In this document: positions 7,926 to 33,233 of the stretch, in pieces | Position numbering within the stretch: the first letter of the stretch is position 1 | Layout: every line of letters starts with the position of its first letter | Origin: Sterolibacterium sp. | Lineage (GTDB): Bacteria; Pseudomonadota; Gammaproteobacteria; Burkholderiales; Rhodocyclaceae | Reading direction: 5' to 3' | Assembly (NCBI GenBank): GCA_018062105.1 | Contig: JAGOSV010000007.1 | Location: forward strand, 1 to 34,432 | Length of the DNA: 34,432 nucleotides | Position numbers and translations under genes: made by a program | Notes under the pieces: model-generated | What the model was told of the DNA's origin: nothing | The model's input: only the letters and a program-made list of their open reading frames with translations | Databases searched by the model: none

Positions 7926-10900
7926 ATGAAGCTGCAACCACAATTGCAACCGCAACCGCAACATTCTGGTCGTCGCCGTGGCCGCATTCGCATTGTGACG
8001 GCAACGGCGCTGTTCGATGGCCATGATGCGGCCATCAACATCATGCGGCGCATTTTGCAGGCCAGTGGTGCCGAGGTGATTCACCTTGGCCATCACCGTT
8101 CGGTGGAGGAGATCGTCGAGGCGGCCTTGCAGGAGGATGCCGACGCGGTTGCCGTGTCTTCCTACCAGGGCGGCCATGTCGAGTTCTTCCGTTACATGGT
8201 CGATCTGCTGCGTGCGCGGGGTGGGGCGGACATCCAGATATTCGGTGGTGGCGGCGGAGTCATCGTGCCCCATGAGATCGAGATGCTGCATGCCAGCGGT
8301 GTGACACACATCTATTCGGTGACGGATGGCCAGATGTTGGGGTTGCAGGGTATGGCCGACGACCTGTTGTCCCGCGTGGTGGCACAGAGGTCGTTGCGCT
8401 CCGAGCTGACCATGGCGGATGTTCAGCGCCTGGTTCAGGGCGATCGTCAAGCCTTGGGCCGTTTCATCACGGCGCTGGAGGATGGGTGTTGCCCGCATGC
8501 CGTCCGGGAGCAACTGCATTGCCAGGTAGCCACCGCTGGCCGCTCGGTGCCGGTGGTGGGCATCACCGGGACGGGCGGAGCCGGCAAGTCTTCGCTGACG
8601 GATGAGCTGATCCGCCGCTTCCGGCTTGATCAGGAGGATCGATTGCGGCTGGTGGTTCTGTCCATCGACCCGTCGCGCCGGCGCACGGGTGGTGCCTTGT
8701 TGGGCGACCGCATTCGCATGAACGCCATCGATCATCCGAATATCATGATGCGCTCACTGGCAACTCGCGATTCGGGCAGTGAGCTTTGTGCCGTGTTGCC
8801 CGAGGTGATCGCCGCCTGCCGGCTGACCGGCTTTGATCTGATCCTGGTGGAAACTGCCGGAATCGGCCAGGGCGATGCTGCCATTGCTCCGCTGGTCGAT
8901 GTGGCTCTGTATGTCATGACACCAGAGTTTGGTGCGGCAAGCCAGCTGGAGAAGATCGACATGCTGGATTATGCCGACATCGTGGTCATCAACAAGTTTG
9001 ACCGTAAGGGCGCCGAGGATGCGCTGCGCGATGTGTGCAAGCAGTTCCAGCGTAATCACGGACGCTTTGCCGAGTCGCCGGAGACCTTGCCGGTGTTTGG
9101 CACCGTGGCGGCACGCTTCAATGATGACGGGGTGACGGCTTGTTATCAGGCATTGCGTCAGCAGTTGGCGGCGGCGGGTCTGGTGCTGGCGGCTGGTGGC
9201 CTGCCGGTGGTTCACGTCCGTCATTCTTCACATTTGCAGGCCGTGGTGCCGGCCGGGCGGGTGCGCTATCTGGCCGAGATTGCTGATGCCGTGCGCAGTC
9301 ATCACCGTCGCGTCGAGGTGCAGGTGGCGCTGGCGCGTGAGTGTCAGGCATTGCGTGTGACCCAGGCGTTGCTGGCGACAGCCGGCCGGCCGGTGGATGA
9401 GGTAGCAGCCTTGTGTGCGTTCAAGGAGGCACAGAGGAGCGAGGAGGCACGTCGCCTGCTGGTGCAGTGGCCGCAGGTGCGTGCCGCCTATTCCTGTACG
9501 GAGGAGCAGGGCGCTTGCAGTCCGTTATTTTGTGAAACGTTGTCCGGCTTGCGTCTGCCCCGGGTAGCGTTGCCTGATGACGCGGCGGATGTCGATGAGG
9601 GCACGCTGCTACGTTTTTTGATGCGCGAGAATTTGCCGGGTGCCTATCCCTACACCGCCGGGGTTTTTGCCTTCAAGCGCGCAGATGAAGAGCCGACACG
9701 CATGTTTGCCGGCGAGGGCGATGCCTTTCGCACCAACCAACGATTTCATGCGCTGTCGGCGGGCATGCCGGCTCGGCGGCTGTCTACGGCTTTCGATTCG
9801 GTGACGCTGTACGGCAGTGACCCCGAGGTGCGGCCGGATATTTACGGCAAGATCGGCAATGCCGGTGTGTCGATTGCCACGCTCGATGATCTCCGGGAAC
9901 TCTATGCCTGGTTTGATCTTTGCGATCCTGCTGTGTCGGTGTCGATGACCATCAACGGCCCGGCACCAGTGTTGCTGGCGATGTATTTCAATGTTGCACT
10001 CGACCAGCAGGTCGAGAATTTTCGGGCTGCACAGGGACGTGCTCCAGACAGCGGGGAATGGCAGGCGATCCGGCAGCGGGTGCTGCATGCGGTGCGCGGC
10101 ACGGTGCAGGCCGACATCCTCAAGGAGGATCAGGGACAGAACACCTGCATCTTCTCGACCGAGTTTGCCTTGCGGATGATGGGTGATGTCCAGGAGTGGT
10201 TCATCCACCACGAGGTGCGTCATTTTTATGCGGTGTCGGTGTCCGGTTACCACATCGCCGAGGCTGGGGCGAATCCAGTCACCCAGCTGGCCTTTACGCT
10301 GGCCAATGGCTTTACCTATGTCGAAGCCTGCTTGGCACGCGGCCTGCGGATCGACGACTTTGCTCCCAGTCTGTCGTTCTTTTTCAGCAACGGCATGGAG
10401 CCGGAATATGCCGTCATCGGTCGGGTTGCCCGGCGCATTTGGGCGGTGGCGATGAAAGAGCGCTACGGTGCCAATGAACGCAGCCAGAAACTCAAGTATC
10501 ACATCCAGACTTCCGGCCGCAGCCTGCATGCGCAGGAGATGGCGTTCAACGACATCCGCACCACCTTGCAGGCGCTGATTGCCAGCTATGACCATTGCAA
10601 TTCGCTGCATACCAATGCCTATGACGAAGCCATCACCACGCCGACCGAGGATTCGGTGCGCCGGGCGTTGGCGATCCAGCTCATTATCAATCGTGAGTGG
10701 GGACTGTCGAAAAATCAGAATCCCAATCAGGGCTCCTTCATCATCGAGACCCTGACCGATCTGGTCGAAGAGGCCGTGCTGCGTGAGTTCGATGCGCTGA
10801 CGGCACGCGGCGGGGTGCTCGGTGCCATGGAAACGGGCTACCAGCGTAGCCGGATCCAGGAAGAGTCCTTGCACTATGAACGTCTGAAGCATGATGGCAG

Positions 10901-11201
10901 CCTGCCCGTCGTCGGCGTGAATACCTTTCTCAAGGCGCAGGGGATATCGCCAGCGGTATCGGCAGGGATGGTGCTGGCACGTTCATCAGAAGCCGAAAAG
11001 CAGTCGCAGTTGCAACGCCTGCAGACCTTTCATGAACGCCATCAGGCCGAGGTGGCCCGATGTCTGGTGCAATTGAAGCAGGCCGCACTGAATGGTGGCA
11101 ATGTCTTCGAGGTGTTGATGGAGGCTGTTCGTCACTGTTCGCTAGGACAGATCACGGCCGCCCTGCATGAAGTCGGGGGGCAGTATCGGCGAGGCATGTA
11201 G
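7926..11201 (+). CDS. icmF: Fused isobutyryl-CoA mutase IcmF
   Basis: This 1091-residue adenosylcobalamin enzyme interconverts isobutyryl-CoA and n-butyryl-CoA, and some homologs also act on isovaleryl/pivalyl-CoA. The domain order fits IcmF: a B12-binding domain with DGHDAA (residues 31-36; His is the cobalt ligand), a MeaB-like G-protein chaperone domain with P-loop GTGGAGKSS (about 215) and VVINKFDRKGAEDA as base-recognition segment, then the TIM-barrel mutase domain beginning near YPYTAGVFAFKR and including KIGNAGVSIATLDD, GQNTCIFSTEFALRMMGD and the C-terminal repair of HIQTSGRSLHAQE. The ATG at 7926 has GGGAGG 6 bases upstream; an earlier in-frame ATG lacks one. The fusion length is typical. 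It probably serves branched-chain amino acid or fatty acid catabolism. Confidence 0.95.
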   Translation: MKLQPQLQPQPQHSGRRRGRIRIVTATALFDGHDAAINIMRRILQASGAEVIHLGHHRSVEEIVEAALQEDADAVAVSSYQGGHVEFFRYMVDLLRARGGADIQIFGGGGGVIVPHEIEMLHASGVTHIYSVTDGQMLGLQGMADDLLSRVVAQRSLRSELTMADVQRLVQGDRQALGRFITALEDGCCPHAVREQLHCQVATAGRSVPVVGITGTGGAGKSSLTDELIRRFRLDQEDRLRLVVLSIDPSRRRTGGALLGDRIRMNAIDHPNIMMRSLATRDSGSELCAVLPEVIAACRLTGFDLILVETAGIGQGDAAIAPLVDVALYVMTPEFGAASQLEKIDMLDYADIVVINKFDRKGAEDALRDVCKQFQRNHGRFAESPETLPVFGTVAARFNDDGVTACYQALRQQLAAAGLVLAAGGLPVVHVRHSSHLQAVVPAGRVRYLAEIADAVRSHHRRVEVQVALARECQALRVTQALLATAGRPVDEVAALCAFKEAQRSEEARRLLVQWPQVRAAYSCTEEQGACSPLFCETLSGLRLPRVALPDDAADVDEGTLLRFLMRENLPGAYPYTAGVFAFKRADEEPTRMFAGEGDAFRTNQRFHALSAGMPARRLSTAFDSVTLYGSDPEVRPDIYGKIGNAGVSIATLDDLRELYAWFDLCDPAVSVSMTINGPAPVLLAMYFNVALDQQVENFRAAQGRAPDSGEWQAIRQRVLHAVRGTVQADILKEDQGQNTCIFSTEFALRMMGDVQEWFIHHEVRHFYAVSVSGYHIAEAGANPVTQLAFTLANGFTYVEACLARGLRIDDFAPSLSFFFSNGMEPEYAVIGRVARRIWAVAMKERYGANERSQKLKYHIQTSGRSLHAQEMAFNDIRTTLQALIASYDHCNSLHTNAYDEAITTPTEDSVRRALAIQLIINREWGLSKNQNPNQGSFIIETLTDLVEEAVLREFDALTARGGVLGAMETGYQRSRIQEESLHYERLKHDGSLPVVGVNTFLKAQGISPAVSAGMVLARSSEAEKQSQLQRLQTFHERHQAEVARCLVQLKQAALNGGNVFEVLMEAVRHCSLGQITAALHEVGGQYRRGM

Positions 11202-11242
11202 CCGGCTGGCCGGAATGGCGCGGGGCTGGCGGATGTGCCGTC

Positions 11243-11276
11243 GTTCCGGCGCATGCGACGGGTGCATGGCCGGAAC
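11243..11276 (+). terminator. Hairpin downstream of icmF
   Basis: GTTCCGGC (11243-11250) pairs perfectly with GCCGGAAC (11269-11276), with further partial GCATGC/TGCATG pairing inside. There is no T-tract, so it would be a factor-dependent terminator or mRNA 3' stabiliser for icmF at best. Confidence 0.35.
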
Positions 11277-11292
11277 AGTGGGGCGGTGCGTT

Positions 11293-11390
11293 ATTGATCC
11301 GGTGCGGTGATGTATGAACCGTTTGCCCTGAGCTTGTCGAAGGGCTTCGACAGGCTCAGCCCGAACGGAACTTCATCTGGCCGGATCAAT
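11293..11390. repeat. Nested inverted repeat (REP-like cruciform)
   Basis: An outer perfect 10-base pair (ATTGATCCGG 11293-11302 with CCGGATCAAT 11381-11390) encloses an inner imperfect hairpin at 11319-11368. The inner arms include GCCCTGAGC...GTCGAAG and CTTCGAC...GGCTCAGCCC. The inner sequence belongs, from memory, to a dispersed repeat common in GC-rich proteobacterial intergenic regions. It sits between the converging icmF and ferritin-like genes and may double as a bidirectional terminator. Confidence 0.7.
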
Positions 11391-11409
11391 AGCGAGTTGG
11401 CGAGTCAGT

Positions 11410-11865
11410 TCAGCCTGTGAACGCGGCGGTGTCCCCCGGGCGGCGCAGCATCTTGTTGACTTCGTCCAGGTGCAGAGCCTCGCTGACGATCATTTCACGG
11501 GCATATTCTTCGAGCAGCACCGATTGTCCTTCGACGATGCTGAGCAAGTTCTTGTAGGCTTCTAGGGCGGATTTTTCGTGTGCCAGGCTTTCGCGCAGGA
11601 TGTCGCCGATGTCATGTTGCTGGGTTTCCAGCAGGGGGCCGATCTTGAGTGAAGGGTGGCCACCCAGCAGGGTCACCAGTTCACCGGCCTTTTGTGCGTG
11701 TGCCAGGCTTTCACTGGCATTGGCCTTCATCCACGAGACGATGGGGATGCGGTTGTAGCCATAAATCATCAGGGCGTAATGGCTGTAGCGAACCACGCCG
11801 GCCAGTTCCAGTTCCATGATGTGGTTGAGCGCGTCGCTGGCGGATTGTGTCGTCTGTTCGTTCAT
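11410..11865 (-). CDS. Ferritin-like / bacterioferritin-family protein
   Basis: This 151-residue four-helix protein has spaced acidic and histidine residues consistent with a diiron site: E20 (MELELAGVVRY), E52 and H56 (ASESLAHA), E97 (LAHEKSALEAY), and E129 with H132 (SEALHLDEV). Classical bacterioferritin has a haem-ligand methionine directly after the second-helix glutamate; here that residue is serine, so haem binding in the usual way is doubtful. Such proteins oxidise and store iron or protect against peroxide. The start has AAGGAAG five bases upstream. It stands alone between a repeat and the cold-shock leader, so no partner is indicated. Confidence 0.8.
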   Translation of the reverse strand: MNEQTTQSASDALNHIMELELAGVVRYSHYALMIYGYNRIPIVSWMKANASESLAHAQKAGELVTLLGGHPSLKIGPLLETQQHDIGDILRESLAHEKSALEAYKNLLSIVEGQSVLLEEYAREMIVSEALHLDEVNKMLRRPGDTAAFTG

Positions 11866-21288: not shown

Positions 21289-21504
21289 ATGGCAAACGTT
21301 GACGATGAAATTCTGACGCTGGACGAAGTTGCGGCCTACCTGAAGGCGGGCAAGCGCACGGTCTACCGCCTTGCGGCTGAAGGCAAGCTCCCCGCTTTCA
21401 AGTTGGGTGGCACGTGGCGCTTCCGGCGCACTGAGCTGGATCGCTGGATTGCAAACCGTATCGACACGCACAGCCAATCCAATCCAGACGGAGATGCGCC
21501 GTGA
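21289..21504 (+). CDS. Small excisionase-type helix-turn-helix protein
   Basis: The 71-residue protein consists almost wholly of a winged-HTH of the HTH_17/excisionase type: ILTLDEVAAYLKAGKRTVYR (residues 8-27) followed by the wing LGGTWRFRRTELDRWI. Such domains bind DNA as regulators or recombination directionality factors. It is the first gene of the defense operon and its TGA overlaps the GTG of brxF by 4 bases, so it is translated with BREX genes. It is more likely a regulator of this operon than an excisionase, since no integrase is seen, but this is inference. Tandem 11-base repeats upstream could be its target. Confidence 0.8.
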   Translation: MANVDDEILTLDEVAAYLKAGKRTVYRLAAEGKLPAFKLGGTWRFRRTELDRWIANRIDTHSQSNPDGDAP

Positions 21505-22016
21505 GCGGGCCTGTCTCCCAAGGCATTCCCAGCAATCCGGTACTCGACAGGCTTGAGCGGCTGGTCGGCGAAATCGGCGATCTTCAAAGCAAGCTGATCC
21601 TGCTGGTGGGCAACGGCGGCAAGACCCGGCTCCTGCGCACATTGGCACAGCGGCTGAACGTCGCGCCGTTCAATCTCGGCGTGGAGCTGGGGCATCGGCT
21701 GGCGGCTACGCCTGTGTCCGAGCGCGGCTTCTCGGCGAACGAACTGCTGCGCGAATTGACCGACAGCGCGCGCGGTGACGCGCCGCTGATGCTCGACAAC
21801 CTCGAAGTGCTGTTCGAGCCGAGCCTGAAGATCAATCCGCTCGACCTCATCAAACGGCTGGCGCATTCGTGCCGCGTCGTCGCCGTGTGGCCGGGTGAAA
21901 TGCGTGATGACCGCTTGGTGTACGCCAGCATGGGGCATCCCGAATACCGCGACTACACCCGCGATGGCGTCGTCGTTTTTGAAGCGGCGCAGGGCCAGCA
22001 AGGAACCAGAACATGA
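21501..22016 (+). CDS. brxF: BREX-3 P-loop protein BrxF
   Basis: The 171-residue protein is a small NTPase-like protein. It has a short glycine loop LLVGNGGKTRLL (residues 34-45) and a Walker-B-like LMLDNLE (96-102), in the position and size of BrxF, the first core gene of type 3 BREX. Its role is thought to be ATP-dependent help for BrxC, but the mechanism is not established. The P-loop is shorter than the canonical GxxxxGK[ST], an oddity discussed in the findings. It starts with GTG overlapping the previous stop and its own stop overlaps the brxC ATG (ATGA). Assignment rests on context plus motif pattern. Confidence 0.8.
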   Translation: MSGPVSQGIPSNPVLDRLERLVGEIGDLQSKLILLVGNGGKTRLLRTLAQRLNVAPFNLGVELGHRLAATPVSERGFSANELLRELTDSARGDAPLMLDNLEVLFEPSLKINPLDLIKRLAHSCRVVAVWPGEMRDDRLVYASMGHPEYRDYTRDGVVVFEAAQGQQGTRT

Positions 22017-25000
22017 AATACAAAGACCTGATTCAGTTCGAACAGATCGAATCCGTCGTCCAACTGCTCGACGCCGACCGCCCGGACGAAGCCAAGAAGC
22101 TCGTCTCGACCTTCGTCATCTCCGACGACATGGCCGAGCGCATCGCCAAGCTCATGGTGCCGCAGCTTGGCTTCGACGAAGCGGTCGATCACAAGGGCGT
22201 GCTCATCGTCGGCAACTACGGCACCGGTAAATCGCACTTGATGTCGGTGCTGTCGCTGGTGGCCGAGGACGCGGCCTACGCGCCGATGATCCGTCACCCC
22301 AAGGTCGTGGATGCCGTTGCTTCTATCGCCGGGAAGTTCAAGGTGCTGCGTATCGAGATCGGCGGGCTGGAAATGCCGCTGCGCCAGGTCATTACCCAGC
22401 AGCTTGAACGCTTCCTCAAGAAACTCGGCGTGGACTTCACCTTCCCAGCGGCGGATCAGGAACTGAACAACAAGGATTCCTTCGAGGAAATGATGGCCGC
22501 GTTCGGCGAGAAATTCCCGAGCCAGGGGCTGCTGCTCGTGGTGGACGAGTTCCTCGAATACCTGCAATCGCGCCGCGATCACGAACTGGTGCTCGACTTG
22601 GCCATTCTGCGCCAGATCGGTGAAGTCGCGAAACACCTGAAATTTCGCTTCGTGGCGGGTGTGCAGGAAGCCATCTTCGACAGTGGCCGCTTCCAGCACG
22701 TTGCCGACAGCATTCGCCGCGTCAATGAACGTTTCACGCAAATCCTGATTGACCGTCAGGACGTGAGCTTCGTTGTCTCCGCGCGCCTGCTCAAGAAATC
22801 CGCCGACCAGCAGAACAAAATCCGCGACTACCTCAAGCCCTTCGCCAAGTTCTACGGCTCGATGAACGAGCGCATGGACGAGTACGTCCGGCTGTTCCCG
22901 GTGCATCCGGACTACCTCAAGACCTTCGAGCAGATTCACTTCACCGAAAAACGCGGCGCGCTCAAGACCATCGAAGCCGCGATGCAGGCCATCCTCGATC
23001 AGGACGTGCCCACCGACCGCCCACAACTGATCGCCTACGAGAGCTTCTGGAACACGGTCAAGAGCAATCAGGTGCTGCGCGCCGACCCCAACATCAAGGA
23101 AGTGCTGCGCGTCTCCGAAGTGCTGGAATCCCGCATCCAGCAGGCATTCACGCGCCCGGCCTACAAGCCGATGGCGCTGCGTGTCATCAACGGCTTGGCC
23201 GTGCATCGTCTGACCACCGGCGGCGACATCCACATCCCGATTGGCCCCACCGCCGCCGAACTGCGCGACGCCCTGTGCCTGTTCCAGTCCGGTGTCGAGG
23301 ATATGCCTGGCGAACCTGCCGAGAACCTGCTGTCGATGGTGCAGACGGTGATGCGTGAGGTGCTGAAAACCGTCAACGGTCAGTTCATCTCCAAGGCAGC
23401 CGACACGGAACAGTATTACCTCGATCTGAAGAAGGACATCGACTACGACGCCCAGATCGAAAAACGTGCCGAAGCCCTGTCCGACGATGCACTCGACCGC
23501 GCCTACTACAGCGCCGTCAAGGCACTGATGGAGTGCAGCGACGACCTGCGTTACCCCGGTTTCCAAATCTGGCAATACCAGATCGAGTGGCAGGAACGCC
23601 GCGTCGAACGCCTGGGCTACCTGTTCTTCGGCGCGCCCAACGACCGCCCCACGGCGCAGCCGGAGCGCGACTTCTACATCTACTTCATCCAGCCCTTCGA
23701 CAAGCCGCGCTTTACCGATACGCAGCAACCGGACGAAGTGTTCTTCCGCCTGAAATCGCCGGACGAGGACTACAAGCGTCACCTGTCGCAATACGCAGCC
23801 TCGCTGGACTTGGCATCCACCGCCAGCGGCGGCGCAAAAGCCGTCTATCAGTCCAAGGCGCAGGATTCTTTGCGCGCGATGAGCAAGTGGTTGCAAGAAA
23901 AGCAGCTCACCGCTTTTGAAGTCACCTATCAAGGCAAGGCCAAAACGCTGCAAGACTGGGCCAAGGGCGTCTCACTGCGCGACCGCGCACGCTTGGGGCC
24001 GGATGAACGCATCAACTTCCGCGACATCGTGAACATCGTCTCGGGTTTGGTCTTGGCCCAGCGTTTTGCCGACATCGCACCCGAATACCCCAAGTTTCCG
24101 GTGCTGGTCACCGAGGCCAACCGCAAATCGCTCATCACCAGCACGCTGCGCGCACTGGCAGGCGGCGCGCGCACGAAGGACGCCACCGCCGTGCTCGACG
24201 CGCTGGAAGTGCTCGATGGCGAACGCATCGATCCGGCGCAGTCACGTTATGCCCAAGAAATCCTGAACCGCCTCAAGGCCAAGGGCCACGGCCAGGTGCT
24301 CAACCGCAACGAACTCATCACCGGTGCGACTGACGTGGAGTATTTCGCGCCCGCCAAGCTCCGTCTGGAACCTGATCTGCTCGTCGCGGTGTTGGGCACG
24401 CTGGTGTATTCCGGCGACATCGTGCTTTCCATCACTGGCGACAAGATCGACTCCGGCAAGCTTGCCCTGCTGTCCGAACGCTCGCTCGACGAACTCAAAG
24501 CGTTCAAGCACATCGAAGCACCCAAGGAAATCAACCTCGCGGTGCTGCGCGCGCTGTTCGAGTTGCTCGGCTTGCCATCCGGTCTGGCGCAAAAGGCCAG
24601 TCAGGGCGACACGGAGCCGGTCGTCGCTTTGCAAGAGAAGGTCAGCGCGCTGGTGCCGCGCGTGCTCAAGGCAGGCTCCGATCTCCAGCAAGGCAAGCTC
24701 GGCTTCTGGGGCCAGAACCTGCTGCGCGACGAAGAAGCCAAGGACTGGTATGCGCGGCTGGACGCACTCAAGAAGTTCACCGAGTCGCTCTCGCCCTACA
24801 ACACCGTCGGCAAGCTCAAGAACCTGCGCGTTACGCAGGAAGACCTCGACACCCAGAAGAAGAATCTGGACGTGCTCACCGGCGTCGAGCGCCTGCTGGA
24901 ACTGGTGGGTGAACTCGGTGGCACTTCGTCCTACCTGTCGCAGGCGGAAATGGTCTTGCAGCCCGGCCACGACTGGGTGAAGCAGGCCGAGGCCGCGCGC

Positions 25001-25753
25001 AAGGCGCTGTTCGACAAGCTGGGCGAAGACCGTACGGCGGAACGTGCCGCCACCGTACTCGGTGAAGGTCGCCAGACGTTGGCGCAACTCAAAAAGGATT
25101 ACATCGCCGCCTACATCGCCAGCCACAGCAAGGCGCGGCTGGGTGTATCCGAGGAGAAAGCCCGCAACGCCCTGCGGCGCGACGACCGCTTGCTGTCCCT
25201 GCGCGTGCTGGCAGGCGTTTCCTTGATGCCCACCAGCCAGCTCACTTCCTTTGAAGACGCGCTCAATGGCCTGAAAAGCTGCTCCGCGCTGGACGAGCCC
25301 ACGCTGCTCACCAGCCCGGTGTGCCCGCACTGCCAGTTCCGCCCGTCCGCCGAACAACTGGAACTGCTGCCCGCCGCCAACCGCCTGAACAAGCTCGACG
25401 ACGATCTGGATCAGTTGCAGGCCAACTGGCAACAAACCCTGCTGGAAAATCTGGAAGATCCGTTCACGCAGGACAGCCTGGGCCTGCTGCCGCCTGCGGC
25501 CAAGAAGCTGATCGACGCCTTCCTTGCCGCGCGCAAGCTGCCGGAGCCGGTGACATCCGATTTCGCCAGCGCCGTGCAGGAAGCCCTGTCCGGTCTGGAG
25601 AAGATCGCGGTCACCACCGGCGAACTGCGCCAAGCCCTGCTGCAAGGCGGCTCACCCGCCACGCCCGAAGAACTGCGCAAGCGGTTCGACGCGCTCATCA
25701 GCGAGCGCGGCAAGGGTAAGGACGCCACCAAGCTGCGCTTCGTCATCGAGTGA
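22013..25753 (+). CDS. brxC: BREX ATPase BrxC/PglY (DUF6079 family)
   Basis: The 1246-residue ATPase has a canonical Walker A GNYGTGKSH (residues 67-75), a Walker B LLLVVDEFLEY (173-183) and a long C-terminal region with SPVCPHCQF (CxxC). These features and its size, between brxF and the methyltransferase, fit BrxC/PglY. That large ATPase is required by BREX for phage exclusion and, in some systems, for methylation. It acts in the cytoplasm on DNA together with the methyltransferase and PglZ. The gene appears intact. ATGA overlap with brxF and GTGA overlap of its stop with an upstream in-frame GTG of the next gene indicate tight coupling. Confidence 0.9.
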   Translation: MKYKDLIQFEQIESVVQLLDADRPDEAKKLVSTFVISDDMAERIAKLMVPQLGFDEAVDHKGVLIVGNYGTGKSHLMSVLSLVAEDAAYAPMIRHPKVVDAVASIAGKFKVLRIEIGGLEMPLRQVITQQLERFLKKLGVDFTFPAADQELNNKDSFEEMMAAFGEKFPSQGLLLVVDEFLEYLQSRRDHELVLDLAILRQIGEVAKHLKFRFVAGVQEAIFDSGRFQHVADSIRRVNERFTQILIDRQDVSFVVSARLLKKSADQQNKIRDYLKPFAKFYGSMNERMDEYVRLFPVHPDYLKTFEQIHFTEKRGALKTIEAAMQAILDQDVPTDRPQLIAYESFWNTVKSNQVLRADPNIKEVLRVSEVLESRIQQAFTRPAYKPMALRVINGLAVHRLTTGGDIHIPIGPTAAELRDALCLFQSGVEDMPGEPAENLLSMVQTVMREVLKTVNGQFISKAADTEQYYLDLKKDIDYDAQIEKRAEALSDDALDRAYYSAVKALMECSDDLRYPGFQIWQYQIEWQERRVERLGYLFFGAPNDRPTAQPERDFYIYFIQPFDKPRFTDTQQPDEVFFRLKSPDEDYKRHLSQYAASLDLASTASGGAKAVYQSKAQDSLRAMSKWLQEKQLTAFEVTYQGKAKTLQDWAKGVSLRDRARLGPDERINFRDIVNIVSGLVLAQRFADIAPEYPKFPVLVTEANRKSLITSTLRALAGGARTKDATAVLDALEVLDGERIDPAQSRYAQEILNRLKAKGHGQVLNRNELITGATDVEYFAPAKLRLEPDLLVAVLGTLVYSGDIVLSITGDKIDSGKLALLSERSLDELKAFKHIEAPKEINLAVLRALFELLGLPSGLAQKASQGDTEPVVALQEKVSALVPRVLKAGSDLQQGKLGFWGQNLLRDEEAKDWYARLDALKKFTESLSPYNTVGKLKNLRVTQEDLDTQKKNLDVLTGVERLLELVGELGGTSSYLSQAEMVLQPGHDWVKQAEAARKALFDKLGEDRTAERAATVLGEGRQTLAQLKKDYIAAYIASHSKARLGVSEEKARNALRRDDRLLSLRVLAGVSLMPTSQLTSFEDALNGLKSCSALDEPTLLTSPVCPHCQFRPSAEQLELLPAANRLNKLDDDLDQLQANWQQTLLENLEDPFTQDSLGLLPPAAKKLIDAFLAARKLPEPVTSDFASAVQEALSGLEKIAVTTGELRQALLQGGSPATPEELRKRFDALISERGKGKDATKLRFVIE

Positions 25754-25764
25754 AGGAGATCAAC

Positions 25765-26943
25765 GTGCTGCTCAAGTCACTGAAACTGACCAATTTCCTG
25801 AGCTTCGGCGAGTCCGCGCAGGTGCTGGAACTGCGCCCGCTCAATGTGGTGATCGGCCCCAATGGGTCGGGGAAATCCAATCTCATCGAAGCCATTGACC
25901 TGATTCGTTCCGCGCCCAGCACCTCGGAGAAATCCAACCTGCTGGCGGCCATCCGCGATGGTGGTGGCGTGCGTGACTGGTTGTGGAAAGGCGCAATCAA
26001 AACACCACACGCAACAATTAATGCGGTGTTCGACAACCCAAGAGCGCACCAGAATTTGCGCTACGTGCTGAGTTTTTCTGAAGTGGGGCAACGCTTCGAG
26101 ATCCTAGATGAGCGTGTCGAACACGAGCAGCCGGACTCTGGACATACCAACCCCTATTTTTATTACCGTTTCCAGAACGGTCATGGCGTGCTCAACATCA
26201 AAGGCCAAGAGCGACGCTTGCAGCACGAAGACATCGACTCCACTGCGTCAATTTTGTCTCAGCGCAAAGACCCCGATCAGTACCCAGAACTGACTTGGCT
26301 AGGTAATTCCTTCGGGAAGATGCGGCTCTACCGCGAGTGGACATTTGGGCGCTACACCACGCCAAGACTGCCGCAGAAGGCTGACTTGCCAAACGACCTG
26401 CTGGAGCCGGACGCCAGCAACCTGGGCTTGGTTCTCAACCGGTTGCGCCGCGATCCAGAGGTCAAAAAGAAGCTGCTCGACGCACTGCGCGCGCTGTACG
26501 ACGGTATCGATGATTTCGACGTGCAAATAGAAGGTGGAACGGTGCAGGTGTTCTTTCAGGAAGGCAGGTACATTGTTCCCGCTACGCGGCTTTCAGATGG
26601 CACTTTGCGCTATCTGTGCTTGCTGGCCATCCTTTGCCACCCCAATCCGCCGCCACTGATTTGTATTGAAGAGCCCGAATTGGGCCTGCACCCCGACGTT
26701 CTGCCAACCTTAGCCGACCTGCTCAAAGATGCGTCAGATCGCACCCAACTGATCGTCACCACCCATTCCGATGTGCTTGTCGATGCTCTGACAGATCAAC
26801 CAGAAGCGGTCATTGTTGCTGAGCGCGGCCCGCAAGGAACCACACTGACCCGACTGGATGCCGAAAAGCTGAAACCCTGGTTGGAAAAATACCGACTCGG
26901 ACAACTCTGGACGCGCGGCGAGATCGGGGGGACGAGATGGTGA
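25765..26943 (+). CDS. AAA ATPase (AAA_15/AAA_21, SMC/ABC-like), partner of DUF4276
   Basis: The 392-residue ATPase has the ABC/SMC-like arrangement: Walker A GPNGSGKSN (residues 31-39), signature LSDGTLR (about 275), Walker B LICIEEPELGLHPD (about 302) and a switch histidine in TTHSD. There is no long SMC coiled coil. This class drives defense systems such as OLD, Septu, RloA/B and PARIS, normally paired with a nuclease. The GTG at 25765 is chosen because AAGGAG lies 6 bases ahead and MLLKSLKLTNFLSFG is the family start; a GTG at 25750 overlaps the brxC stop. It shares 7 bases with the downstream DUF4276 gene, so the two act as a pair. It is not a BREX core gene. Confidence 0.85.
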   Translation: MLLKSLKLTNFLSFGESAQVLELRPLNVVIGPNGSGKSNLIEAIDLIRSAPSTSEKSNLLAAIRDGGGVRDWLWKGAIKTPHATINAVFDNPRAHQNLRYVLSFSEVGQRFEILDERVEHEQPDSGHTNPYFYYRFQNGHGVLNIKGQERRLQHEDIDSTASILSQRKDPDQYPELTWLGNSFGKMRLYREWTFGRYTTPRLPQKADLPNDLLEPDASNLGLVLNRLRRDPEVKKKLLDALRALYDGIDDFDVQIEGGTVQVFFQEGRYIVPATRLSDGTLRYLCLLAILCHPNPPPLICIEEPELGLHPDVLPTLADLLKDASDRTQLIVTTHSDVLVDALTDQPEAVIVAERGPQGTTLTRLDAEKLKPWLEKYRLGQLWTRGEIGGTRW

Positions 26944-27566
26944 AGCTGTATGTAGAAGGCGGCGGCGACACAGCGGCATTGAAAACGGCCTGCCGTGAAG
27001 GATTCACGACATTTATTACCAAGGCCGGCTTGAAGAAACGTCCACGAATCGTGGCTTGTGGAAGCAGGCGCGATGCCTTCGATTCCTTTTGCACCGCAAT
27101 CAATAACGGAGAAGATGCCTTATTGCTCGTGGACAGCGAGGAAGCCGTCAGCGCACAGCATCAACAAGGGCAACCAAACAACTGGCAACCCTGGGTACAC
27201 CTGAAAGCCAGGCAGGGTGACGGCTGGGACAAGCCACAGCATTCCGTCGATACGGATTGCCATCTCATGGTGCAAGTCATGGAAAGCTGGTTTCTCGCCG
27301 ACCGGGAGACACTCAAGGCGTTTTTCGGTCAAGGTTTCAAGGAAAACGCCTTACCTGCCGCCAACAACGCCATCGAAGTCATTGCGAAGCAGCAGGTCTA
27401 TAACTCACTGGCGCAGGCCACCAGTAACTGCAAGACCAAAGCCGCCTACGGTAAAGGCGAACATTCCTTCAAACTGCTGACGAAGATCGACACTGCCAAA
27501 GTCACGCAGGCATCGCCGTGGGCTAAACGGTTCGTGGACGAATTGCGCAAGAAGATGGGTGCCTGA
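26937..27566 (+). CDS. DUF4276 TOPRIM-like protein, probable effector of the ATPase
   Basis: The 209-residue protein starts [20 protein letters not shown]. The E7...D11 residues and the later [10 protein letters not shown] (D66, E68, E69) match the acidic pattern of TOPRIM folds, and [14 protein letters not shown] (111-124) is typical of DUF4276. OLD-like and PARIS-like systems pair an ATPase with a TOPRIM-type nuclease; by analogy this may be a nuclease released or switched on by the ATPase upstream. That is inference: activity of DUF4276 proteins was not established from anything I can see. Overlap of 7 bases with the ATPase and 4 bases to the next ATG place it firmly in the operon. Confidence 0.75.
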
Positions 27567-27570
27567 CGCC

Positions 27571-28809
27571 ATGACCAGAGACGAACAGCTCGCCCGGCTC
27601 CAGTCCATCGAATGGAGCGACATCGAATTCAAGGAAGCGACTTGGGCCGCTCCCCGCGATTCGCTGAAAACCGTCAGTGCCTTCGTGGAAGACAACCTCA
27701 TCAAGGCGTGGCAGGCCATCGTCGAGTTCTATTTCCGCCATAGCGAGCGGCCCTTTGCCGTCGATGCCGCCACCCTGCGCCGTGATGACGATCCGCCGGA
27801 CTACATCTCCTTCCGCGAAGCGGCCATCAACCTGCTGATCCACCAGGACTTCGGCGACACCACGCGCGTGCCGGTCATCCGCTTCTTCCGCGACCAGACC
27901 GAGTTCTTCAACCCCGGCGATGCCTTTGCCTCGCGCGAGCAACTGCTCGACCCTGGCGACAAGGAAGTGCGCAACCCCAGCATCGTCAACGCCTTCCGCC
28001 GCATCGGCCTGTCCGATCAGGGCGGCACCGGCGTGCGCGCCATCTTCGACGGCTGGCGCAGGCTGGGCTACCTGCCGCCGGAAATCGAAAACCACAAGGC
28101 CGAGAAGAGCTTCCGCCTGCGCCTGCGCAAGGAGAAGCTCATCACCGAAGCCCAGCTTCTGGCGCAAGCCAGCCTGGGCGCACACCTGTCCGCGCAGGAA
28201 GCCGACGTTTTCGCCTACCTCACCCGCAAGGGCCAGATCGACCTGACCGACGTGAAGGCGCTCACCGGCCTGTCAGGTGCGGACGCCCGCCAGCTTGTGC
28301 AGCGGCTCACCGTACAAGCCCTGCTTGTGCCGCAGGGCGAAACCGGCAACTTGTTCGGTCTGGCCGAGCACCTGCGCGCCCGCTTCCTGCCCGCCACGCC
28401 CGGTCAGGCCAATAAAAATCAATACGTTATCGACGCTGGTGTCGCTGCCGAAGGCACTGCACAAGCCACTGAACAAGTGACCGATCAAGTCGCGCCAAGG
28501 CAGCCCGAACTTGATCGGTCACTTGATCGGTCGCTGCATCAATTATCCGATGTGCAACGGCAGCTCATTGAATTTGCTGATGTGCCGCGCTCGATGGCGG
28601 AATTGATGGCCCACGCAGGTTTCAGCCATCGCCCGCACTTCGTTGCCACCTACATAGAACCTTTGCTGGCTGGCGGCGTGTTGCGCCTGACCATCCCCGA
28701 CAAGCCGCGCTCGTCGCAGCAACGCTACGTGCTCACCGACGCGGGCGTGCAGCTCAAGCTGCTGCACGAACAACAACAGGCCGCAGGCCAAGCGGATGGG
28801 CAGTCATGA
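27571..28809 (+). CDS. AlbA/Schlafen-type and RecG-like HATPase regulator, internally deleted
   Basis: The 412-residue protein begins with an AlbA_2 (Schlafen-like) remnant, [20 protein letters not shown] (residues 13-32) then KTVSAF. It jumps to [22 protein letters not shown] (39-60), which in related proteins lies well after the AlbA domain. It then continues with an HATPase-type segment: [19 protein letters not shown] (81-99), FNPGDAF, and [21 protein letters not shown]. Winged-helix-like C-terminal domains follow, joined by a QVTDQV linker. An in-frame loss of roughly 100-200 residues is inferred from recalled family layout, not from alignment. Intact homologs act as DNA-binding regulators. 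The ATG at 27571 follows the DUF4276 stop by 4 bases; the stop overlaps the next ATG (ATGA). Confidence 0.7.
28474..28525. repeat. Perfect 16-base inverted repeat inside the AlbA/HATPase gene
   Basis: CAAGTGACCGATCAAG (28474-28489) and CTTGATCGGTCACTTG (28510-28525) form a 16-base perfect stem with a 20-base loop, and a partial third half follows. It encodes a glutamine/valine- and leucine/arginine-rich linker. Confidence 0.8.
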
Positions 28810-29372
28810 ATCAACCCACACGCGGCAAGGCTTCTCCCTCTCCCCCAACCCATCTCCCGCTCGTGGGAGATGGGAGCAAAGCACACAGCGAGGCCGTATT
28901 TCTCCCCGCCCAGAGTGGTGCCGCACTTCTCCCCTCTCCCGCGAGCGGGAGAGGGGCCGGGGGAGAGGGCGATTCCCTGCTAAACCGCGCCAAATCCCTG
29001 CGCAGCCACCAGACCGACGCCGAACAACGGCTTTGGTACCACCTGCGCGCGCACCGCTTCAATGGGCTGAAATTCAAGCGACAAAAACCCATCGGCCCCT
29101 ACATCGTCGATTTCGTCTGCCATGCGCCGTGTTTGGTGATTGAACTCGACGGCGGACAACACGTCGATCAGACCACCTACGACCGCAAGCGCGATACCTA
29201 CTTGCAGGCACAAGGCTTTGCCGTGCTGCGCTTCTGGAACAACCAAGCATTGACCGAAACCGATGCGGTGCTGGACGCGATTCGGCTGAAGGTGCTTGAG
29301 CTTTCCACCCTCTCCCCCAGCCCCTCTCCCGCCAGCGGGAGAGGGGAGAAAAACTCGGCAGGAACTCCATGA
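28806..29372 (+). CDS. DUF559 endonuclease-like protein
   Basis: The 188-residue protein has a PDDEXK-type DUF559 core of about 110 residues. Its elements are [20 protein letters not shown] (64-83), D102 in [10 protein letters not shown]113 and D115 in VIELDGGQH, and a final [14 protein letters not shown]. Such domains resemble very-short-patch repair (Vsr-like) nucleases and occur near restriction and defense genes; a nicking role here is a guess. The first about 55 residues and last about 20 residues are not DUF559: they are translated palindromic repeats (GRGAGGEG and [11 protein letters not shown]). The start overlaps the previous stop and the stop overlaps the next ATG (ATGA), so the chimeric frame is really used as an operon link. 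Confidence 0.8.
28834..28876 (-). repeat. Palindromic element copy 1 (variant stem)
   Basis: CCCATCTCCC (28849-28858) pairs with GGGAGATGGG (28865-28874). Preceded by CTCCCTCTCCCCCAA, it is inverted relative to copies 2, 4 and 5. The stem carries a paired change (A-T) from the common CCCCTCTCCC. Confidence 0.7.
28931..28969 (+). repeat. Palindromic element copy 2
   Basis: A 12-base perfect stem (CCCCTCTCCCGC 28931-28942, GCGGGAGAGGGG 28945-28956), GA loop, is followed by CCGGGGGAGAGGG. It lies in frame in the DUF559 gene. Confidence 0.85.
29308..29346 (-). repeat. Palindromic element copy 3
   Basis: CCCTCTCCCCCAG (29308-29320) precedes the 12-base stem 29321-29332 / 29335-29346 with CA loop. 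Its orientation is opposite to copies 2, 4 and 5. It encodes the tail of the DUF559 protein. Confidence 0.85.
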
Positions 29373-32180: not shown

Positions 32181-33233
32181 ATGGCCAAACGCCCCGCCCA
32201 GCGTGATCAGGCCGTGTCGCTGCTGCCCGTGCCCGAAGGCTACGCACCTTGGCTGGAGGAGTTGAAAGGCCGTATCCACACGGCGCAGCAACGCGCCGCG
32301 CTGGCCGTCAACCGGGAACTGGTGCTGCTGTACTGGCAGATTGGCCGCGACATCCTGCAGCGGCAAGCCGCGCAAGGCTGGGGCAGCAAGGTGATCGAGC
32401 GGCTGGCGCATGATTTGCGGGTGGCGTTTCCGGGCATGAAGGGGTTTTCACGCGCCAACCTGATGTATATGCGGGCATTTGCCGAGGCCTGGCCGGATGC
32501 CGAAATTGTCCAACAGGCTGTTGGACAATTGCCCTGGGGCCACAACCTGGTGCTGCTGACCAAGCTAAAAGCACAGGATATGCGCCTGGCCTATGCGCGG
32601 GCTGCCATCGAGCACGGTTGGTCGCGCAATGTCCTGAACATCCACATCGAAACCCGGCGGCTGGAGCGCAGCGGCCAGGCCATCACCAACTTTGTGGAAC
32701 GCCTGCCCATGCCGGGCAGCGACTTGGCGCAGCAGTCGCTCAAAGACCCTTACCTGTTCGATTTTCTCGATGTCGGCAACGAGGCCGACGAGCGCGAGAT
32801 CGAATCGGCGCTGGTCAAGCACATCACCCAGTTTCTGCTGGAGCTGGGTGCAGGCTTTGCCTTTGTCGGGCGTCAGGTGCATCTGGAAGTGGGCGGCGAT
32901 GACTTCTTCATCGATCTGTTGTTCTACCACCTCAAGCTGCGCTGCTATGTGGTCATCGAACTGAAGGCCGAGAAGTTCAAACCCGAGCATCTGGGGCAGT
33001 TGAGCTTTTACATCACGGCAGTGGATCGGCAGGTCAAGGCCGAGCAGGACGCGCCCACCATCGGCTTGCTGCTGTGCAAGAGCAAGAACGAAGTGGTGGC
33101 CGAATACGCCTTGGGCGACAAAACCCAGCCCATGGGCGTGGCCGAATACAAGCTGCTGGAATCCTTGCCCAAGGAGCTGCAAACCAATCTGCCCAGCATT
33201 GAGCAGATCGAGCGCGAGCTGGGCGGGCAATGA
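32181..33233 (+). CDS. DUF1016 (YhcG-type) PDDEXK nuclease
   Basis: The 350-residue protein has the N-terminal DUF1016 helical region (LVLLYWQIGRDILQRQ) and a C-terminal PDDEXK nuclease with D245 in DDFFIDLLFYH and E260-x-K262 in VVIELKAEKFKP. Members of this family are often found in defense islands and inside restriction or BREX operons; a cleaving effector or DNA repair role is plausible, not shown. It sits one base after the methyltransferase stop and overlaps the helicase ATG (ATGA), inside the BREX core. A 27-base perfect palindrome occurs within it at 32504-32530. No missing catalytic residue is visible. Confidence 0.85.
   Translation: MAKRPAQRDQAVSLLPVPEGYAPWLEELKGRIHTAQQRAALAVNRELVLLYWQIGRDILQRQAAQGWGSKVIERLAHDLRVAFPGMKGFSRANLMYMRAFAEAWPDAEIVQQAVGQLPWGHNLVLLTKLKAQDMRLAYARAAIEHGWSRNVLNIHIETRRLERSGQAITNFVERLPMPGSDLAQQSLKDPYLFDFLDVGNEADEREIESALVKHITQFLLELGAGFAFVGRQVHLEVGGDDFFIDLLFYHLKLRCYVVIELKAEKFKPEHLGQLSFYITAVDRQVKAEQDAPTIGLLLCKSKNEVVAEYALGDKTQPMGVAEYKLLESLPKELQTNLPSIEQIERELGGQ
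32504..32530. repeat. 27-base perfect palindrome within the DUF1016 gene
   Basis: AATTGTCCAACAG (32504-32516) and CTGTTGGACAATT (32518-32530) flank a single G. It encodes IVQQAVGQLP near a conserved QLPWGHN segment. Confidence 0.85.

Follow-up and report, generated by a model that had tools for sequence, protein, structure and literature searches.

Identity of the gene pair and comparison with described systems

In the phage anti-restriction-induced system (PARIS) an SMC/OLD-type ATPase (AriA) is combined with a small TOPRIM-type partner (AriB), RloA and RloB (AbiL-like) form a comparable combination of ATPase and partner, and OLD class 1 proteins and Gabija (GajA) contain an ABC-type ATPase with a Toprim-type nuclease. 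According to passages of two reports, PARIS also occurs inside bacteriophage exclusion (BREX) loci (PMC11341690, PMC9009780), and passages of a third report OLD-ABC ATPase-linked nucleases from BREX and BREX-related loci of at least 1242 taxa, and Schlafen genes from such loci as well (PMC12839542). Here, a similar pair of genes was analyzed in a stretch of 34,432 nucleotides (hereafter the window) from Sterolibacterium sp. (contig JAGOSV010000007.1, positions 1 to 34,432). An ATPase gene and a DUF4276 gene are located in this window inside a type 3 BREX operon that begins at position 21501. Both genes match the models of HEC-01, a candidate system catalogued in PADLOC, at high score, and the pair therefore is a member of this system:

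25765 to 26943, plus strand: HEC-01A, ATPase of the ABC/OLD type with an AAA_21 domain, 392 codons; Pfam AAA_21 135.8 bits, PADLOC HEC-01A (PDLC04177) 629.4 bits over 392 residues
26937 to 27566, plus strand: HEC-01B, DUF4276 protein of 209 amino acids, probable TOPRIM/RloB-like metal-dependent nuclease; PF14103 91.1 bits (cut-off 30.2), PADLOC HEC-01B (PDLC04201) 277.8 bits

The explanation that we favor as the rather likely one regards the pair as a HEC-01 dyad, in other words as an autonomous and PARIS-like ATPase-nuclease defence module which is carried as exchangeable cargo in the slot between brxC and pglXI of type 3 BREX. It draws on the family assignments, the preserved motifs of the ATPase, the almost invariable association of the two genes, their occurrence with BREX types 1, 2, and 3 and without BREX, a step in base composition, and brxC remnants found upstream of three dyads outside BREX.

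A first-pass annotation made from the DNA letters had placed the pair at 25765..27566 in a type 3 BREX operon with a 7-base overlap, and coordinates and family scores agree with this. The DUF4276 gene starts at ATG 26937 and overlaps the 3' end of the ATPase gene by 7 nucleotides; the best start of the ATPase gene is GTG 25765, as chosen in that annotation (AAGGAG is found 6 nucleotides upstream), and not the mechanically assigned GTG 25750. The pair does lie between brxC and the methyltransferase gene, as had been stated, but does not adjoin the latter, a Schlafen-type gene and a DUF559 gene being interposed. The likeness of the ATPase-plus-partner architecture to OLD, RloA/B, and PARIS was rightly recognized, and the existing HEC-01 catalogue entry and the published ATPase-TOPRIM pairs in BREX had been missed.

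The gene rule of HEC-01 presumably requires two adjacent genes with the ATPase first, which is the arrangement found here, with both gene models matched. We take the name to mean Hma-embedded candidate and thus to point to another host system, whereas the copy in the window resides in type 3 BREX. The literature search retrieved no experimental test or functional study of HEC-01; a passage of one article mentions it in passing as a defence system (PMC12724379), and none of the papers searched names DUF4276. Membership in three described systems was considered and rejected. The partner is matched in Pfam by DUF4276 alone and not by DUF4435, the family of the PARIS nuclease (hhalign 4%), and the Salmonella ATPase/DUF4435 genes are described as lying between pglX and pglZ (PMC9009780), compared to a position after brxC here. 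For RloAB, the partner lacks a PF13707 match at E ≤ 0.001 and the profile comparison reaches only 32–58%, with the RloB motif order (EG..TE, D.D, FE.W, Y.K) being common to both. In the case of Gabija and OLD class 1, ATPase and nuclease are unfused in the window, and the neighbors are brxC, the Schlafen-type gene, and the DUF559 gene, with no UvrD-like GajB among them.

ATPase-TOPRIM pairs inside BREX loci are already published (PMC12839542), and the BREX “backup effectors” presented in passages of that paper (Rakesh and Krishnan, 2026) share both idea and layout with the HEC-01 pair. Its main text does not contain DUF4276, and its passages on these loci do not describe one slot common to BREX types or scars consisting of brxC tails. 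Both the occurrence with several BREX types and the scars left by brxC tails, reported below, go beyond what is routine for a catalogued system in a published type of setting.

Pairing and distribution

DUF4276 was detected at E ≤ 0.001 in 65 of 398 genomes sampled from the phylum, with 59 over the curated cut-off of the family. Thirty loci from these 65 genomes were examined with flanks of up to 1.5 kb, and a related ATPase gene was located directly upstream of the DUF4276 gene in 29 of them, the exception (L045) being cut by a contig end. Because the family scores in the window are far above cut-off and the ATPase-DUF4276 order recurs in 29 of 30 loci, the arrangement is not a product of chance. 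In the subfamily of the window, DUF4276 was found in 5 of the 369 genomes of the class sample, and the ATPase at E ≤ 1e-40 in 3 of the 250 genomes of the order sample (own genome included in both counts).

In an IMG/VR contig (L077), the pair is immediately flanked by brxC and pglXI within a type 3 BREX operon and is 78 and 65% identical to that of the window. Type 1 BREX loci contain the pair in the interval from brxC to pglX in G273 (L016 and L018; two contigs with nearly identical proteins) and in G892 (L182); in G254 (L017), it follows a nearly identical type 1 brxC, and the contig ends before pglX. G892 contains a further copy about 0.8 kb upstream of the pglW gene of a type 2 BREX locus (L183), whose ATPase is a fragment cut by the contig end and is 85% identical to that of the window. 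Standalone pairs, defined by the lack of a match to the BREX query set within the fetched stretch of 6–35 kb, occur in G169, G042, G410, L049, and L051 among others. Degraded copies were found in G640, G907, and L050. The pair accordingly recurs with and without BREX and is not bound to one BREX subtype, in line with its earlier description as a separable module.

The genome of the window (G000) contains a second, divergent pair (L011, contig C83, 423–6343) with overlapping genes and an ATPase that is 30% identical to the first; it is situated between SIR2-like and HsdR genes. Searching for DUF4276 by tblastn at 1e-5 gave no match among 72,556 records of plasmids and 50,697 of phages. Carriage by phages was also considered for the matching IMG/VR contig and is unsupported, because a host-type BREX operon fills the first 12.7 kb of this contig.

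Organization of the operon and contents of the cargo slot

The operon is arranged in the order brxF, brxC, ATPase gene, DUF4276 gene, Schlafen-type gene, DUF559 gene, pglXI, gene for a YhcG/DUF1016 nuclease, and brxHII; pglZ and brxA come next, past the end of the window but on the same contig of 69,051 bases. It is tightly packed, with intergenic spacings of −7 to +11 nucleotides from brxF to the YhcG gene and a gap of 11 nucleotides between brxC and the ATPase gene. Besides the pair, it comprises the following genes, two of which (HATPase_c_4/Fic-like_C and DUF559) separate the pair from pglXI:

21501 to 22016, plus strand: brxF, start of the operon; PADLOC BrxF 159.2 bits, NCBIfam BREX_3_BrxF 156.4 bits (cut-off 50)
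22013 to 25753, plus strand: brxC (DUF6079), left neighbor of the pair; DUF6079 1894.5 bits, PADLOC BrxC 1865.3 bits
27571 to 28809, plus strand: Schlafen-type gene with HATPase_c_4 and Fic-like_C domains only
28806 to 29372, plus strand: DUF559 protein, further cargo; PF04480 140.9 bits
29369 to 32179, plus strand: pglXI methyltransferase, right edge of the cargo slot; PADLOC PglX/PglXI 1334.3 bits
32181 to 33233, plus strand: YhcG/DUF1016 nuclease (PDC-S02 in PADLOC), carried in a second slot; YhcG_C 218.6 bits, PDC-S02 549.4 bits
33230 to 34432, plus strand: brxHII, running past the window end; PADLOC BrxHI/BrxHII 1412 bits for the whole gene (L009)

The search for type 3 loci with PF19557 gave hits in 25 of 369 class-level and 25 of 398 phylum-level genomes (each count including the genome of the window), and many of these hits were short ones to BrxC of other types. 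The slot between brxC and pglXI was readable in 12 type 3 loci, namely the window, L077, and ten other genomes; it was unreadable in G200, G191, and G497, and G394 and G640 hold relics. HEC-01 occupies two of these 12 slots (window and L077). AlbA_2 Schlafen genes are present in G061, G376, G388, and G426 (in the latter with a Mrr-type gene) and, in a cut-down form, in the window; the other contents are PtuA/PtuB (Septu) in G199, PDC-M07A/B in G451, Phd/PIN together with a 23S-IVP protein in G136, and DUF1828 in G441. G261 and G350 have nothing in the slot. A function as BREX core component or inseparable accessory was rejected, because the pair also occurs outside BREX and type 3 slots can be empty; the pair is cargo and, as the first-pass annotation had held, not part of the BREX core.

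Additional genes within BREX loci are on record. In pEFER, brxU is located between brxC and pglX (a passage of PMC8565348), and of approximately 9,000 genomes in which pglZ and pglX are co-located, approximately 7,000 are stated to encode genes between BREX components (a passage of PMC11341690). In two of the type 3 loci, G136 and G350 (L138 and L140), brxC is split or frameshifted, and some type 3 BREX operons may therefore be decaying.

Base composition, brxC remnants, and ATPase phylogeny

The two genes of the pair have G + C contents of 0.562 (ATPase) and 0.544 (DUF4276), and G + C contents at third codon positions (GC3) of 0.656 and 0.648, respectively. All values are exceeded by those of brxF, brxC, pglXI, brxHII, pglZ, and brxA (G + C 0.61–0.64, GC3 0.75–0.82), and this step in base composition marks the pair as foreign in origin within the operon. 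GC3 of the other cargo genes is 0.69 (DUF559), 0.77 (Schlafen-type gene), and 0.79 (YhcG).

Remnants of brxC were sought upstream of 33 ATPase genes that do not lie in an intact BREX locus (10 selected ones, together with 23 from the 30 loci of the phylum sample) and of four embedded controls, using 200 plain base shuffles per gene as null model; L001, L025, L030, L033, L038, and L045 were left out, and the locus of L047 was included among the 10 as L184. Three genes carried a clear scar. In G640 (L147, 3584–3715), the degraded HEC-01 pair is preceded by the 3' end of a type 3 brxC, 44 codons in length (score 142, shuffles ≤43), and the last 43 brxC codons are retained in G394 (L146, 11195–11323) upstream of a PDC-M07A ATPase gene that is followed by an RloB gene (score 195, shuffles ≤39). 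The third case is the seemingly standalone HEC-01 pair of G169 (L012, 17103–17162), which is preceded by the last 20 codons and the stop codon of a type 3 brxC (score 74, shuffles ≤42). The other 30 of the 33 genes outside intact BREX showed no clear scar: L035 was borderline, with a score of 46 reached by one of 200 shuffles, the scores of L050 and L029 were each equaled by 7 of 200 shuffles and that of L039 by 8, and those of the remaining genes by at least 15. The embedded controls scored 290–304.

Since brxC tails persist upstream of them, these three dyads, two of them HEC-01, have probably left, or outlived, BREX loci while keeping a piece of brxC, as judged from three cases. These scars are the least expected result of the analysis. 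A catalogued dyad is documented in or beside three BREX types and standing alone, with brxC tails as physical traces of the origin of some copies.

The brxC tail of G640 lies approximately 20 nucleotides from a tRNA-Val(GAC) gene (L147, 3736–3810), and the broken copy of G907 likewise lies near such a gene (L181, 9615–9691). The position of these two broken HEC-01 copies suggests that islands carrying HEC-01 integrate at tRNA-Val(GAC).

In the ATPase trees, the window grouped with L077 (type 3), L183 (type 2), and the standalone copies of G169 and G042 (support 81/99, not starred), and a tree including G907 recovered this group of type 3, type 2, and standalone copies at 99/99. The type 1 copies fell outside the mixed group; two changes are needed on the tree, one of which is forced by well-supported branches. 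L183 is represented by a fragment of 150 residues, and because the trees do not settle the branching order inside the mixed group, no direction of transfer is claimed.

A more far-reaching and rather doubtful proposal is that the BREX types have in common a dedicated socket for exchange at the junction where brxC meets the methyltransferase gene. Dyads of a sensor and a nuclease (HEC-01, Septu, PDC-M07, and others) would be swapped there by recombination with the left breakpoint in the last 20–45 brxC codons, would keep the brxC tail as a scar on leaving, and would, once plugged in, sense failure of the host BREX or restriction system.

Features of the two proteins

The ATPase is of the ABC/OLD type and its motifs are intact. 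The segments that we take to be Walker A (GPNGSGKS), signature (LSDGT), Walker B (CIEEPE), and H-loop (TTHS) are invariant in an alignment of six ATPases (the window and five homologs, 67–75% identity). The structure model, with a predicted local distance difference test score (pLDDT) of 86.7, has 635 PDB matches at E ≤ 0.001; the heads of SMC and Rad50, PtuA of retrons and Septu, and OLD nuclease (6p74) are among the proteins matched. SMC, OLD, PtuA, and AriA chains are also listed when PDB sequences are searched with a profile.

The DUF4276 partner had been called TOPRIM-like in the first-pass annotation, which holds in part. Among 25 diverse members (19 of the 30 phylum loci and six others), E7, D66, and E116 are the sole invariant positions, with G8 and K173 nearly so, but motif 2, the comparison with RloB (58 and 32%), the weak structure match, and the 4% for the PARIS nuclease family fall short of a plain assignment. 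RloB proteins carry the acids in the same order (EG..TE, D.D, FE.W, Y.K), and DUF4435 proteins do so in part. Compared as profiles, a wide DUF4276 set matched RloB at 58% in an odd register, whereas a narrow set reached 32% and placed D66/E68 on the RloB DRD and E116-x-W on FE-x-W. The unrelated control gave 0.2%. PF13707 (RloB) did not match HEC-01B at E ≤ 0.001, and the genome of the window gave no PF13707 match. The model of the DUF4276 protein (pLDDT 85.2, predicted template modeling score 0.85) has a core of alternating strands and helices. Ranked by template modeling (TM) score, the highest of the 50 listed PDB matches is the OLD Toprim domain of Burkholderia pseudomallei (6nk8; TM 0.48/0.50, E 0.64), and the highest of 50 listed viral models is a RloB-like protein (TM 0.40, E 0.66; 0 of 159 at E ≤ 0.001). 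Motif order, profile matches, and the weak fold match taken together indicate that DUF4276 probably is TOPRIM-like but divergent. With no solved relative found by sequence, it is a candidate for a new branch of the TOPRIM nucleases.

Proposed mechanism and alternative explanations

As an autonomous module, the ATPase would form a nucleotide-bound scaffold that keeps DUF4276 inactive and would sense a sign of infection; the triggered DUF4276 protein would then cut nucleic acid (RNA or DNA) by metal-dependent chemistry and thereby stop the infected cell. More tentatively, the trigger could be loss or inhibition of the neighboring restriction-type system, in which case the dyad would form a second line behind BREX. 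E7 of DUF4276 may be the counterpart of E26 of AriB, by analogy to the E26A mutant of the AriB Toprim domain, in which tRNA cutting is reported as abolished (a passage of PMC12409363).

Several results weigh against this explanation. In the 30 phylum loci, HsdR was found within 1.5 kb of DUF4276 in two and genes of the BREX query set in none, and a link to restriction systems therefore is not general. In a member of the Spirochaetia (L048, 10001–11200), a HEC-01A-like ATPase gene immediately precedes pglX in a type 1 BREX locus and is unaccompanied by DUF4276, either as an orphan or after loss of its partner. Motif 2 of DUF4276 reads D-x-E in 6 of 25 members (the subfamily of the window) and D-x-Y in 17, in place of the D-x-D of TOPRIM proteins. 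No solved structure is related to DUF4276 by sequence at E ≤ 10, none of the 331 PDB matches obtained for its model with Foldseek reaches E ≤ 0.001, and the literature search found no functional data for any DUF4276 protein. Finally, passages of one study report that Salmonella PARIS inside BREX was inactive against every phage tested, did not respond to the Ocr homologs tried, and could be deleted without a reduction of defence (PMC11341690).

The strongest alternative, possible although on the whole not probable, is that the pair genuinely guards BREX by answering anti-BREX phage proteins, so that its operon position is functional. PrrC, which responds to Stp as PARIS does to Ocr, provides a precedent. 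Guarding is plausible because Ocr inhibits BREX and also triggers PARIS (a passage of PMC11341690). Furthermore, the pair recurs in the slot following brxC in BREX of two types and close to pglW in another type, lies 11 nucleotides from brxC in a tightly packed operon, and has a second version in the same genome that adjoins HsdR. However, standalone copies persist (G042, G410, L049, and L051), 28 of 30 loci of the wider family lack a query-set BREX or HsdR gene within 1.5 kb, the contents of the slot are functionally unrelated and include a toxin-antitoxin pair, and the Salmonella PARIS embedded in BREX answered no phage or Ocr homolog in the tests reported (PMC11341690). The availability of one two-gene module and a matched operon with an empty slot makes it directly testable whether such genes are guards or passengers in BREX.

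That DUF4276 is a structural or signaling partner of the ATPase instead of a nuclease appears unlikely. The lack of a significant structural match and the D-x-Y form of motif 2 in 17 of 25 members would fit such a role, but the invariant acids follow the RloB order and partly that of DUF4435, D66/E68 and E116-x-W align with the RloB DRD and FE-x-W, two members (L041 and L042) read D-R-D in motif 2 if an alignment gap is closed, and the top TM scores among the listed matches belong to the OLD Toprim domain and a RloB-like protein.

Neutral or selfish, toxin-antitoxin-like cargo that hitchhikes in a permissive operon slot would account for the degraded copies (G640, G907, and L050), for the Phd/PIN toxin-antitoxin pair in the slot of another type 3 locus, and for the two relics near tRNA-Val(GAC). 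We regard this as improbable, since the ATPase motifs and E7/D66/E116 of DUF4276 are conserved across phyla, which indicates selection for activity. Least probable is a BREX accessory that contributes to restriction or methylation but has no trigger itself, to which the position inside the operon and the tight spacing would be suited, but the pair occurs without BREX, two of 12 type 3 loci carry no cargo in the slot (G261 and G350, the latter with a split brxC), and analogous Salmonella ATPase/DUF4435 genes are reported to leave methylation unaffected (a passage of PMC9009780).

Neighboring cargo

The Schlafen-type gene downstream of the pair (27571–28809) has an in-frame gap of about 219 amino acids relative to SLFN_AlbA_2 relatives of 621 and 646 amino acids in the same slot. 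The gap comprises most of the AlbA_2 nuclease domain and the following linker and reflects a deletion or an assembly error. A second cargo slot is located between pglXI and brxHII, where the window carries YhcG/PDC-S02 (32181–33233) and the IMG/VR contig L077 carries HEC-02A together with a gene for a protein of 169 amino acids (10078–11618).

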